A DNA stretch of 64,000 nt from Planctomycetaceae bacterium (GTDB lineage Bacteria > Planctomycetota > Planctomycetia > Planctomycetales > Planctomycetaceae): positions 1 to 64,000 of the forward strand of contig JADZEF010000273.1 in assembly GCA_020850695.1 (NCBI GenBank), read 5' to 3'. The notes below the pieces were generated by a model. It did not search any database, was not told where the DNA came from, and saw only the letters and a list, made by a program, of their open reading frames with translations. The position numbers were made by a program, and so were the translations under genes. This document shows positions 49,567 through 54,368 of this stretch, in pieces (the first letter of the stretch is position 1; every line of letters begins with the position of its first letter).

Positions 49567-50382
49567 TTACGCTCCGGGCTGCCAGACGAGGATTTCCCCC
49601 TTGCCGGGAATCGAGCGATCGCCGCTATAGAGTGCGTAGGCTCCCTCCGACTCCTCATTTGGCAGCCGGATGCCGAACGGGGCCAGAGTCCGGGCGAGGA
49701 TGTTGATGAAGACGGGGTTCAAGTGGGCGGCGTAGGCGAACGTGGGCATCATCTGCAGCGGCTTCAAGGAGATGATGGTGCCGCGCTTCATCCAGGCGCC
49801 GGTGCGGATCTCGGCCCCGCTCATCAGGATGATCGTTCCCCCCTTCATCTGCAGGCCGGTGAAATCGCGCGTCGGGCCACCCACGACGATCGTCCCCCGG
49901 CGCATCCGCATGCCGACTTCGAGACCGGCCGAGCCGTCGATGATGATCGTTCCGTTGCGCATCCCCTGGAGGGCTCCGCGGTACGCCGCGCCGACCTGCC
50001 CGCCCGCGTTGCCGTGGATGTGGATGAAGCCGTTCTTCATCTCCGCGCCAATCCAGTCCCCGGCGTTGCCATGAACGTTGATCAGTCCGCCCGTCATGTA
50101 GGCGCCGAGGTGCATGCCGATCGAACCGTGGATCGTGATGGTCCCCTTCGACATGGCGCGGCCGACCCAGCGGACCTTGGGCATTGTCCCGTGAAGCACA
50201 AGGTCTTCGCACTTCTCTCCCTCGACGTCGAAGAACTCGCCCAGCGGGAGCTGCCGCTTGCCATGATAGACGGTGAGCGCCCGGATCTCGGCGTTCGAAA
50301 GTCCGCCGATGACGTCCGGCGTGAGGACTTCGGCCTCGAGGGGGACGGTCGGCGTGCGCTTGAGATGGAAGGTGACAGGCAT
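49567..50382 (-). CDS. fhcC: Formylmethanofuran dehydrogenase subunit C
   Basis: A 271-residue subunit of the complex linking C1 units on methanofuran (or methylofuran) to formate/CO2. Its body is the right-handed beta-helix shared with the C-terminal part of glutamate synthase: successive Gly-x-Ile-x-Ile-x-Gly turns such as KGTITIHGSIG, GLINVHGNAGDWIG, NGFIHIHGNAGGQVG and NGTIIIDGSAG. It is structural, packing the FwdA and FwdB subunits. ATG at 50382 is 14 bases after the fhcA stop, so the two are co-transcribed. Upstream in-frame codons to 50487 lie inside fhcA. Confidence 0.94.
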   Translation of the reverse strand: MPVTFHLKRTPTVPLEAEVLTPDVIGGLSNAEIRALTVYHGKRQLPLGEFFDVEGEKCEDLVLHGTMPKVRWVGRAMSKGTITIHGSIGMHLGAYMTGGLINVHGNAGDWIGAEMKNGFIHIHGNAGGQVGAAYRGALQGMRNGTIIIDGSAGLEVGMRMRRGTIVVGGPTRDFTGLQMKGGTIILMSGAEIRTGAWMKRGTIISLKPLQMMPTFAYAAHLNPVFINILARTLAPFGIRLPNEESEGAYALYSGDRSIPGKGEILVWQPGA

Positions 50383-50396
50383 CGATCCAGTCCACG

Positions 50397-52037
50397 TCAG
50401 CCGGGGATCGGGACACAGTCGCGCAGATGGGGATGCTCGATGCGTTCGAGCTCGACCGGATAGTTCTCGAACTGCATCGTGTAGCACTCTTCGAACAGCG
50501 GCCGCATGAAGTCGTCGATGTCGGGCTCGCAGTGGGGGCGGACGAGGAACTCGTGTCCCTGAGGAGCTTCGCGGATCTCTCCCTCTTCGATCACGATTTC
50601 ACCCGCTTTGATGACATACCGCGGATGGCCGAACATGCGGACGACGTCATGGTCTTCTTCGTAGATCACGAGGTCGGCGTCACAGCCGATGCCGAGGTTC
50701 CCCTTGTGTGTCAGTCCGAGCGCCCGTGCGGGACCGGCCGACATCGAGATGGCCACCTCGTACAGCGAATACTCGCGGGTCACTTCGGGGAGCCGGATCT
50801 TTCCCTTGATCTTGTCGGGGAGCTGCGCAATGCATTCCTTCCGGAAGTCTGCCCGCATCAGCAACTGGAGGATTTCCGGATATCGCCAGAAGCATCCGCC
50901 GTTGGGGTGGTCGGTCGAAAGGAAGACCTGCCACGGGTCTTCGATGAGGAGCAGCAGCTCGAGGCCGGCCGCCCACTGGACGGCATTGACCAGGTTGCTG
51001 GGGCGATAGGTGTAGGGAACGATCCCGCAACCGGTTTCGTTCTCGACGTCGAGGTTGCCCCACTTGCGGCCGGTGAGCTTGTGGAGCAGGTGCTGCCACG
51101 GGCCGTCGGCGGTGATCGTCACCGTGTCGCCGAAAAGAACCGCTCCCGCGTCTGTTGTCAGGTTCTTGTGACTGTTGAAATGCTCGGCCAGTTCGGCGGT
51201 GCTGGAGCACATCGTGTCCCAGCCGTCGCCGCCGTAGGCGTGGTATTGCGAGTGGGCGATGTGAGCGCGGCGGCCTTCGAGGCGGTGGAGCGTGTCGAGC
51301 GTCGTCGAGATGTTGCCGGGTGCGCCGAGGTTATTGCAGTGGAGGTGCATCGGGTGCGGGAGGCCCAGCTCGTCGCAGATCCGTGCCAGTTGGGTGACGA
51401 TCGAACCGGGGGTGAGGTTCCGGTAGCCCTCGATCGGCGAGTCGAGCTGCTTGGCGTCCTTCCCCCACTTCCAGGCGGTGACCCCCCCGGGGTTAACGGC
51501 TTTGATCCCGTACGACTTGGCAGCCCACAAGTACCATGCGACGACCTGCTTGGCCCGCTCATACTCTCCCTTTTCAAGCTGGTCGAGCATGATCTCGTTG
51601 TTCGCCATGAGCGTCAGCGACGCCTTGTCGACGATCGGGATGTCAGCGAGTTCCTCGTGCGTGTGTCGGGCTGACAGGACCGGAACGGCGGCTTCATTGA
51701 CCGTCGTCCAACCCATCCCCGCATAGAGGTAGCCGGTGGCGAACGTCGTGGGGGCCATGCCTCCGAGCCCGCTGCGTCGCGACTTGGTGCGGATGAACGC
51801 CTGGGTGCGGCGATGGTCTTCGGGCGTCATCGCGCGGGCGAAGTTGATCGCTCCGCCGGCGACATGCGTGTGCACGTCGACCCCGCCCGGGAAGACGATC
51901 ATCCCTGTAGCGTCGATCGTGCGGCCGCCATCGACCGAGGCGACGAAGCGGCCCTTGTCGTCGATGCACAAGTCCTTGACCTGGCCGTTGATGCCGTTGG
52001 CCGGATCGTAAACCTTTCCGCCGGTGATGCGAAGCAT
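50397..52037 (-). CDS. fhcA: Formylmethanofuran dehydrogenase subunit A, amidohydrolase
   Basis: A 546-residue metal-dependent amidohydrolase that interconverts formylmethanofuran and formate plus methanofuran. The expected dinuclear-metal ligands are visible: His56 and His58 (DVHTHVAGG), Lys179 (YGIKAVNPGG, the lysine normally carboxylated), His231 (HLHCNN), His259/His262 (HIAHSQYH) and Asp376 (STDHPNGG). At 546 residues it is normal length. It is upstream of and coupled to fhcC. A 356-base gap containing a large inverted repeat separates it from fhcB, so it may have its own promoter. Confidence 0.96.
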   Translation of the reverse strand: MLRITGGKVYDPANGINGQVKDLCIDDKGRFVASVDGGRTIDATGMIVFPGGVDVHTHVAGGAINFARAMTPEDHRRTQAFIRTKSRRSGLGGMAPTTFATGYLYAGMGWTTVNEAAVPVLSARHTHEELADIPIVDKASLTLMANNEIMLDQLEKGEYERAKQVVAWYLWAAKSYGIKAVNPGGVTAWKWGKDAKQLDSPIEGYRNLTPGSIVTQLARICDELGLPHPMHLHCNNLGAPGNISTTLDTLHRLEGRRAHIAHSQYHAYGGDGWDTMCSSTAELAEHFNSHKNLTTDAGAVLFGDTVTITADGPWQHLLHKLTGRKWGNLDVENETGCGIVPYTYRPSNLVNAVQWAAGLELLLLIEDPWQVFLSTDHPNGGCFWRYPEILQLLMRADFRKECIAQLPDKIKGKIRLPEVTREYSLYEVAISMSAGPARALGLTHKGNLGIGCDADLVIYEEDHDVVRMFGHPRYVIKAGEIVIEEGEIREAPQGHEFLVRPHCEPDIDDFMRPLFEECYTMQFENYPVELERIEHPHLRDCVPIPG

Positions 52038-52132: not shown

Positions 52133-52272
52133 AGGTTTGAATAAGGAACCCAGGAAGGCAGGAAAAAGACAGGAAGCAGAGAAAAGCCAAATCCAGATCT
52201 GGACGACGGCTCGGCCTCTGATTCTGGATTCCTTGCCTTTTTCCTGCTTTCCTGGGTTCCTTATTCAAACCT
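52133..52272. repeat. Large inverted-repeat element between fhcB and fhcA
   Basis: Arms of about 36 bases, one mismatch in the compared part, beginning AGGTTTGAATAAGGAACCCA and ending with its complement (TGGGTTCCTTATTCAAACCT). The 68-base centre is itself partly palindromic around CCAGATCTGG. No coding frame is evident. It looks like a small non-autonomous mobile or hairpin element. The rest of the gap (52038-52132 and 52273-52393) shows nothing recognisable, though it is more AT-rich than its surroundings. Confidence 0.9.
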
Positions 52273-52393: not shown

Positions 52394-53734
52394 TTAGACC
52401 TGTCGGGTCAACATCTGCGGCTGGCTGCCGTCCGGGAGCCAGAAGGGCTTTCGGGCGATGGCCTCGTTGATGCGGCGGACGACTTCTTCATCGGACGGAT
52501 ACGGCGACTTGAGGGCCGGCTTCAGCGGCATCGGAAGCTCGTCCATGCGATAGGCCGTCCCCGGTGCGGCGATCCCTTGCGGGGCCGTCGTGATGTGCAC
52601 GCGGGCCAGCGCGCTGGTGTGCGTGATGTGGGGATCGAGCACGATCGTCGGAATGCGCTTCAGATGATCGATCGCCGGTTGCGGCATCGTCCCGCCAGGG
52701 TCGGCCCCGATGATGAACGCCGCATCGCAATCGCCGCGGACGAGAACGTCGACCGTCGAGAACTCGCCCGGGTTGTAGCGGGGATAGCCTCGGTTGAACG
52801 AGATGCCGAACGGGTAGCCCGTCTGCCATCGCATGATGACGTCGGCCCCGGTGACGTTTCCGTGGCCGCGCATGGGCATGGCGACGAACTTGGTGAAGGC
52901 GTTCATCTCAGCGGCCAGCATGAGAAGCGCCGCGCTGTTCATGTGCTTGCCGCGGGTCATCGAGAGGCCCATGCCGAAGAACATGCAGCCGAACTTCGCG
53001 GCCTTCATCCGGCGGATGAGGTCGTCGAGCGTTTCGCGCGTCAGGCCGGTGGCGTTGATCTGCTCGTCGGCGACGTATTCATCCTTGATCATCGCCCGCA
53101 GGATCGTGATCAGCTCGAAGTCTTTCCCGGGCTTGATCTGCAGGAAGATGTCCGCCGCGTTGGCGCTCTTCGTTTCGCGGATGTCGACGAGCACCATCGT
53201 GCGGTCCTTACGGCCCCGCGGCAGAAACTTGCTCTTCTGCATGATGGTGTATTTCGTGAAATGGCGGGGATGGCACTCGGCCGGGTTTCCCCCCCAGTAC
53301 ACGATGAAATCGGCTCGTTGCTTGACTTCGCCGAGCGTGCAAGTGACTTTGCCACCCAACTGGGCGGCGATTTCGGTTGGGCCGTGTCAAAGCGACGTGT
53401 GACTGTCGAGCAGCCCTCCGAGCTGGTCGGCCAGGGCGACGCACTCCTTCTGCGCTTCGCAGGTGGTATTGCTCATGCCGTACACGAGCGGCATGTCGGC
53501 TTCGTGCAGCAGCGTGGCCGCCATTTCGATGGCGTCGTCGAGCGAGGCCTCGCGGCCGTCGATGAGGGCCATCGGATACTTCTTCTCGGCGGTGTGGTTC
53601 AGGAACCACGCCGTCCCGAGGACGCACGCCTTGTTCGCCTTATGGATCCGCATCTCGTCGTGATGCAGCTGGATATCGTCGCAGACGCATCCGCAGAACG
53701 TGCAGGTGGCGTTATTGATGACCGAAAGGCTCAT
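52394..53734 (-). CDS. fhcB: Formylmethanofuran dehydrogenase subunit B, predicted selenoprotein
   Basis: The catalytic molybdopterin subunit, 446 residues if TGA at 53389-53387 is read as selenocysteine. Start MSLSVINNATCTFCGCVCDD; Cys11, Cys14, Cys18 and Cys37 are placed to hold a [4Fe-4S] cluster. The in-frame TGA is codon 116, followed by His-Gly-Pro-Thr, matching the Sec/Cys-His-Gly-Pro active site of the formate dehydrogenase/FwdB family (Cys118 in Methanothermobacter FwdB, Sec in Methanopyrus). The frame is uninterrupted on both sides, both halves are well conserved, and a SECIS-like hairpin follows. So this is not a broken gene. Ordinary gene calling gives two pieces, 53734-53387 and 53359-52394. 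It lies downstream of the fwdD-like gene after 298 bases. Confidence 0.9.
53351..53368 (-). promoter_or_regulatory. Predicted bacterial SECIS hairpin
   Basis: Minus strand, 18 nt after the TGA: GCCGCCC-AGTT-GGGTGGC, seven pairs (one G-U) closed by a four-base loop containing GU. Twenty-five bases separate TGA and loop, within the range accepted for SelB-dependent elements. It lies inside coding sequence, as bacterial SECIS elements do. A competing helix, CCCAAC (53381-53376) with GTTGGG (53360-53355), is possible and would place the structure closer to the TGA. Confidence 0.75.
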
Positions 53735-54032
53735 GGTGCGCTTCCCGAGGACCTTCTGGATCGATCTACTTGCTTTCACACGGGGTGTCGTCCGAACCGG
53801 ACGACGGGACCGTGAACGTTCAACCCAAGGCCCGGCCGAGGCAGCTGCCGCGGACGCGGCGGGGCATGAACCGCCCCTCTTCGATCTCGGTCCAGGGAGC
53901 GAGACCGGCCGTGTCCCCCTCCACTGTAAAGTGAGGACCGTCAATCCCAGAACGTTGCGGGTCGAGTGGTTGTTCCGACATGACTCTCACCTGTGTTCGC
54001 CAACTCGGCTCGATGCGATCTGCCGCACACCG

Positions 54033-54368
54033 TCATTGCGGGATGACGTCGACCTCCCACCCTTTCGAGGTCGGCATCCCTGTCCCGTCCGTGTCTCCCC
54101 CCATCAATCGGCAGGTGGGTGGACCGTAGGGGACGAAAATCATTCCGAGCGGCACTTTCCCCGCCTGACACTTGAACGCCGACTCGCCGAACTCGGTGCG
54201 AATCAACGCCATCTGCCCCTCGGCGAGGCCGATTTCCGCCATATCCTCTGCTGCCATCGTCATCGAATTGGTCAGGGCTTGATACTCGGGAGAGTTTTTC
54301 CCCACGTTGATCAACGACCCCTGCTTCGACGAGCGGGACGAGTTCAGGATAAACCGTTTCGCTGCCAT
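54033..54368 (-). CDS. fwdD: Formylmethanofuran dehydrogenase subunit D-like, dinucleotide-binding domain
   Basis: A 111-residue stand-alone molybdopterin-dinucleotide-binding domain (FwdD/FmdD type). Signs are the N-terminal LNSSRSSKQGSLINVGK, the AAEDMAEIGLAEGQ turn, PLGMIFVPYGPP and a C-terminal GMPTSKGWEVDV. In archaeal Fwd this subunit completes the pterin pocket of FwdB. Methylotrophic proteobacteria, whose FhcB is metal-free, do not use it, so its presence supports a metal-containing enzyme here. It is upstream of fhcB on the same strand. The 298 bases between hold only a small hairpin (53787-53805, GTCGTCC/GGACGAC) and may include a second promoter. Confidence 0.9.
   Translation of the reverse strand: MAAKRFILNSSRSSKQGSLINVGKNSPEYQALTNSMTMAAEDMAEIGLAEGQMALIRTEFGESAFKCQAGKVPLGMIFVPYGPPTCRLMGGDTDGTGMPTSKGWEVDVIPQ

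Follow-up and report, generated by a model that had tools for sequence, protein, structure and literature searches.

We analysed a window of 64,000 nucleotides from a Planctomycetaceae bacterium (positions 1 to 64,000 of contig JADZEF010000273.1, in the 8.6 Mb, 99.98% complete assembly GCA_020850695.1), and found on its minus strand what is very likely a bacterial fwdD-(small selenoprotein)-fwdB-fwdA-fwdC operon. Its genes and features, listed in the direction of transcription (Sec, selenocysteine), are as follows:

54033..54368, minus strand: fwdD, first gene of the operon, molybdopterin-dinucleotide-binding subunit, 111 aa (Pfam Molydop_binding over cut-off)
53766..53981, minus strand: small ORF, candidate new selenoprotein gene, 71 aa, MSEQPLDPQRSGIDGPHFTVEGDTAGLAPWTEIEEGRFMPRRVRGSCLGRALG-U-TFTVPSSGSDDTPCESK, stop TAG (conserved TGA, constraint)
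53820..53822, minus strand: in-frame TGA of the small ORF, codon 54, predicted Sec (TGA in 73/73 loci)
53787..53805, minus strand: SECIS-like hairpin of the small ORF, GTCGTCCG-GTT-CGGACGAC (fold, covariation; loop 22 nt past the UGA)
52394..53734, minus strand: fwdB, formylmethanofuran dehydrogenase subunit B, 446 aa on readthrough (TIGR03129, PDB alignment)
53387..53389, minus strand: in-frame TGA of fwdB, codon 116, predicted Sec, putative Mo/W ligand
53351..53368, minus strand: SECIS hairpin of fwdB, GCCGCCC-AGTT-GGGTGGC (fold, synonymous constraint; loop 25 nt past the UGA)
50397..52037, minus strand: fwdA, formylmethanofuran dehydrogenase subunit A, amidohydrolase-type (TIGR03121, 669 bits)
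49567..50382, minus strand: fwdC, formylmethanofuran dehydrogenase subunit C (TIGR03122, 263 bits; preferred start ATG 50382)

The fwdB frame, from 53734 to 52394, is open except for the single TGA at codon 116. The initial annotation, made from sequence alone, had described this frame together with N-terminal cysteines 11, 14, 18 and 37 fitting a [4Fe-4S] cluster, and both held in the details that were checked. The alignment it had suggested for the 446-residue product confirmed that the protein belongs to FwdB: the NCBIfam model TIGR03129 matches residues 8-425, spanning the TGA, with 493 bits (curated cut-off, 327.8 bits), and in the PDB alignment the four cysteine columns match those of 5t5i_B and 9sfi_Q. 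The TGA itself, preceded by DSHTSL and followed by HGPTEIAAQLGG, falls in the column of the tungsten ligand Cys118 in the solved FwdB 5t5i_B and of an "X" (non-standard residue) in 9sfi_Q. Judged against these two proteins, the window's FwdB satisfies the criterion of the FwdB/FmdB family, namely N-terminal [4Fe-4S] cysteines and a Sec or Cys ligand position followed by His-Gly-Pro.

As for the other subunits, fwdA shares conserved H-x-H, Lys and Asp motifs with relatives in the PDB; the TIGR03122 match of fwdC begins at residue 38 of the longer ORF; and fwdD, which was found in 74 of the 82 loci with a TGA at the fwdB ligand codon (hereafter Sec loci), scores 67 bits (E 1e-18) with the NCBIfam FwdD model NF042908, under the 175-bit cut-off of that model. 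No polyferredoxin gene occurs in the operon of the window. Elsewhere the genome has a second FwdA, two Ftr genes and one Mch. An inverted repeat (52133-52272; 39-nt arms, 95% complementary) lies between fwdB and fwdA; it is likely to be of the MITE type, since the genome contains dozens of related copies (~70-95% identity), and it is the source of spurious Rfam miRNA matches.

The TGA at the fwdB ligand codon is present in 82 of 103 aligned FwdB/FhcB loci, most of them from metagenome assemblies. A sequencing error or a chance nonsense mutation is ruled out, because this same TGA recurs in 82 loci, among them those of G307 (L038), a genome in a single contig, and of strain K23_9, whose chromosome is complete (CP036526, L102). 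The Sec-type proteins of other genomes are 69-92% identical to the query and share the context DSHTSL-U-HGP, followed nearly always by TE(I/V)AAQLGG. A check of this column in homologues had also been advised at the outset: the close relatives all read TGA, and Cys (TGC or TGT), in the context TTTSV-C-HGP, stands there in the closest clade without Sec (L023-L029; 53-60% identity). In more distant B subunits the column holds Cys, Gly, Ser or a deletion, the Gly forms having already been reported in three planctomycetes by a 2016 study (PMC4807772). A tree of 47 sequences groups the Sec proteins as one side of a branch supported at 100/100, and leaves the deeper branching unresolved.

Three further observations concern these relatives. 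First, the B subunits of one genus of the same planctomycete family (L048-L052) have the metal-ligand loop deleted, and this deletion, along with Gly or Ser in other relatives, raises the possibility that the metal site was lost repeatedly. Second, the genome of the window also carries a Cys-type FhcB/FwdB as a lone gene (C8:10783-12243; G000, L134), which adjoins neither fwdA nor fwdC and could conceivably encode a selenium-independent isozyme. Third, a metagenome-assembled genome labelled Acidobacteria has fwdD and the small ORF alongside Sec-FwdB (L121), and either horizontal transfer or a misbinned contig may account for it.

The hairpin that the initial annotation had seen downstream of the fwdB TGA also held (53368-53351, GCCGCCC-AGUU-GGGUGGC). 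In the bacterial SECIS model (PMC13188914), the apical loop lies 16-37 nt from the UGA and has a G within its first two positions, usually followed by G or U, and the fwdB hairpin (loop AGUU, 25 nt from the UGA) satisfies it. The hairpin is under selection at synonymous sites: codons 121-128, which encode it, have the lowest synonymous variation of any fwdB window; CAG-TTG stands at the loop in 74 of 74 sequences, though roughly one Leu in four in these genes is encoded by TTG; and the AGUU loop is kept in 81 of 81, the changes in the stem mostly retaining pairing via G-U. An Rfam search returned no SECIS match, its weak matches being due to chance or to miRNA models set off by the inverted repeat.

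The genes for selenocysteine insertion are present. All four that the initial annotation had proposed to look for, selA, selB, selC (tRNA-Sec) and selD, were found in the genome of the window, with the UCA-anticodon tRNA-Sec (C238:2-95) adjoining selB (C238:303-2171). Among 30 planctomycetes, SelB scored above its curated cut-off in 10/10 genomes with the fwdB TGA versus 2/20 without it (Fisher p 2e-6), and tRNA-Sec was found in 9/10 versus 3/20 (Fisher p 1e-4), the sole Sec genome without a tRNA-Sec match, G343, being only 62% complete. Separately, selD and one of the two Ftr genes lie ~6 kb apart on one contig (G000:C241:47653-54745), which may be chance. The initial claim that the fwdB TGA encodes selenocysteine is therefore supported by the homologues, the Sec machinery and the selected hairpin, and we consider this decoding very likely, although insertion remains inferred, with no protein or 75Se data; its further claim of an active Mo/W enzyme is likewise inferred and not shown, there being no metal data.

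What the initial annotation overlooked is a second gene with a TGA and a SECIS-like hairpin directly upstream of fwdB. In Sec-type operons, fwdD and fwdB are separated by 198-878 nt (median 358), and in those Cys-type loci where the gap could be measured by 6-76 nt; ~110 nt of the Sec-type gap, conserved in nearly all Sec loci, contain the end of a small ORF, its TGA and the hairpin. In the window this ORF, preceded by AGGTGA, runs from the ATG at 53981 through the TGA at 53822-53820 to the TAG at 53768-53766. The internal codon is TGA in 73 of 73 loci, which fall into 34 clusters at 80% identity and are thus not near-copies. It is worth noting that these loci were collected by a motif that itself includes the TGA; the only locus with gap sequence that was left out (L034, which contains N) reads TGA as well. 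The ordinary stops vary: the small ORF ends in 36 TGA, 21 TAA and 16 TAG, fwdD of the Sec loci in 36 TGA, 25 TAG and 13 TAA, and fwdB in 29 TGA, 24 TAA and 23 TAG.

Selection acts on the small frame on both sides of its UGA, and the reading frame around the fwdB UGA is constrained too. The pN/pS ratio is 0.21 for the 16 codons before the TGA and 0.41 for the five codons after it, versus 1.4-2.0 in the other frames, and the codons of Gly -1, Leu -2 and Phe +2 vary at the third position although the residues themselves never change. The invariant residues W30, G36, R37, P40, R42, G45, S46, G49, L52, G53 and F56 belong to a conserved core, WxExxxGRFMPRRxRGSxxGRxLG-U-xF, which precedes a variable tail of 11-54 residues. 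AlphaFold yields a model of low confidence (mean pLDDT 63), mostly unstructured, with one beta hairpin at residues 30-40.

The RNA hairpin of this gene (8 bp, loop GUU, 22 nt from the UGA) satisfies the criterion of a bacterial SECIS element with covariation. It shows 26 two-sided pair changes (counted as cells), a number reached in 0 of 500 shuffles, a control that does not correct for relatedness, and 94% of the cells are paired versus 22-50% in slid controls. In some pairs both substitutions are synonymous, as where one Ser codon goes from TCC to TCT and its partner, also Ser, from TCG to TCA. The hairpin is not followed by a run of T.

The small ORF accompanies 78 of the 82 Sec-type loci versus none of the 21 other FwdB/FhcB loci. 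Two of the four exceptions are truncated; the remaining pair, L094 and L097, have no detectable fwdD or small ORF in the 3 kb upstream of their Sec-FwdB gene, so the small protein is not strictly required. Two genomes, G130 and G315 (L023 and L028), combine a Cys-type FwdB with SelB and tRNA-Sec, and have no small ORF in the stretch examined, so that the ORF seems to follow Sec-FwdB rather than the Sec trait. No homologue with Cys at the Sec position was found in the 21 non-Sec loci or in larger regions around Cys-type operons. The small protein had no match in Pfam or NCBIfam at E 10, and nothing significant in PDB, profile and fold searches; in its GRALG-U-TF motif and neighbourhood it corresponds to none of the 119 prokaryotic selenoprotein families in a 2026 table (PMC13188914), and PMC4807772 in its main text describes no further gene with an in-frame UGA between D and B. 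The ORF is thus probably new, although an earlier mention is not excluded, our coverage of the literature being incomplete (the PMC4807772 supplement; Haft & Tolstoy 2025). It likely represents a genuine and novel selenoprotein family linked to the Sec-type enzyme, the insertion of Sec being again inferred.

The explanation that best accounts for these data, and which we regard as very likely, is a fwd operon in which both UGAs are read as Sec. We propose that SelB and tRNA-Sec decode UGA 116 of fwdB, guided by the SECIS hairpin just downstream, and that the resulting Sec would ligate Mo or W on a bis-pyranopterin cofactor close to the [4Fe-4S] cluster of the N-terminus. Formate and CO2 would be interconverted by FwdB; FwdA would join formate to methanofuran or split formyl-methanofuran into the two, and FwdD would complete the cofactor site. 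These roles are inferred by analogy with characterised Fwd enzymes and from the motifs that are conserved. The presence of Ftr and Mch in the genome makes oxidation of C1 units to CO2 the likely net role, the direction and the electron acceptor being inferred. The UGA of the small ORF would be decoded likewise, through its own hairpin, to give a second selenoprotein of ~71 aa. Its function can only be inferred, and is most likely that of a small, largely extended accessory subunit, or of a maturation or protection factor, specific to the selenium-form complex: the conserved core, the variable tail and the mostly unstructured low-confidence model are suggestive of an extended peptide, either docked on the complex or serving in its assembly. 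A redox role finds no support from any Cys homologue.

Four other explanations deserve consideration. In the first, which is unlikely though it remains possible, the small ORF is a selenium-sensing leader peptide, functionless in itself, in which UGA readthrough by charged tRNA-Sec tunes fwdB. This proposal is favoured by the position of the small ORF directly upstream of a Sec gene, its occurrence with the Sec form only and its SECIS-like hairpin; a SECIS-like element is known to regulate selAB in E. coli. Against it, amino-acid constraint extends over ~25 residues on both sides of the UGA, many of them invariant, which fits a leader less well than a subunit, and the distance from the small-ORF stop to the fwdB start varies widely, a poor fit to coupling.

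In the second, the small ORF normally stops at its TGA, and the hairpin is a transcription terminator or an mRNA-stability element, as a G+C-rich hairpin immediately after a stop codon might suggest. This is very improbable: the codon is TGA in every locus whereas the stops of neighbouring genes are mixed, purifying selection continues in frame past the TGA, with an invariant Phe +2, the T run of a terminator is absent, and termination there would cut off fwdBAC. In the third, FwdB would carry no metal, like the Fhc-type subunit of methylotrophs, and its TGA would reflect decay of a site no longer needed, or a pseudogene. Some planctomycete B subunits do have Gly, Ser or a deletion at the ligand column, but the TGA is invariant in the 82 loci with the remaining frame open, the hairpin is selected, fwdD is present and the Sec machinery co-occurs, making this reading scarcely tenable as well. 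Lastly, reassignment of UGA to a sense codon (such as Trp), which two in-frame UGAs in neighbouring genes might evoke, is all but excluded and was rejected, given that UGA is an ordinary stop of fwdD (36/74, and in the window's own fwdD) and of fwdB (29/76), and that SelB and a UCA-anticodon tRNA-Sec are present.

The reading of both UGAs as Sec can be set against known systems. A 2016 study (PMC4807772) reported selenocysteine fmdB in Rhodopirellula P2 and in a Lake Washington fosmid, in an fmdD-fmdB-fmdA-fmdC operon; like the gene of the window, these encode a bacterial FwdB with Sec at the same site of a D-B-A-C operon, and in Rhodopirellula P2, as in our genome, Sec and Cys forms co-exist. 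The Sec-FwdB of the window is a new example of something already known, so that the selenoprotein idea of the initial annotation was right yet not the first such prediction for these relatives. In archaea, Sec-FwdB is known from Methanopyrus and Methanococcales. With the archaeal Sec-FwdB and the W/Mo Fwd structures (5t5i, 9sfi), the FwdB of the window has in common the fold family, the ligand column and the cluster cysteines; however, archaeal SECIS elements sit in the 3' untranslated region (PMC1088965) whereas our hairpin lies inside the coding sequence, the operon lacks the FwdF/G polyferredoxin of archaeal Fwd, and archaeal Sec-FwdB is, to our knowledge, not accompanied by a reported small selenoprotein. 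Similarly to methylotrophs with Fhc (the formyltransferase/hydrolase complex), the genome has FhcA/B/C homologues, Ftr and Mch, but the criterion of that complex (ligand residue lost, no FwdD) is not met, the window having the TGA/Sec and fwdD. With the 119 catalogued families (PMC13188914), the small ORF shares an in-frame UGA and a downstream bacterial-type hairpin.

One study (PMC7331816) made the case that the metal ligand of the DMSO-reductase family was ancestrally Sec, and stated that bacterial FwdB representatives are absent; the data presented here comprise ~80 bacterial Sec-FwdB loci, most of them in a D-B-A-C operon. As a bolder reading, which we consider likely, the ~70 aa proteins (motif GRALG-U-TF, no Cys counterpart being known) form a new family that serves as a dedicated part of selenium-type Fwd, probably as an accessory subunit on inference only, so that a single operon encodes two selenoproteins, each with its own SECIS. 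If confirmed, the small ORF would be a selenoprotein invisible to searches based on Sec/Cys pairs, since no Cys homologue was found, and would suggest that further selenoproteins are hidden as intergenic sequence. A conserved partner exclusive to the Sec form would offer a concrete handle on what selenium contributes to the chemistry of Fwd and formate dehydrogenases.
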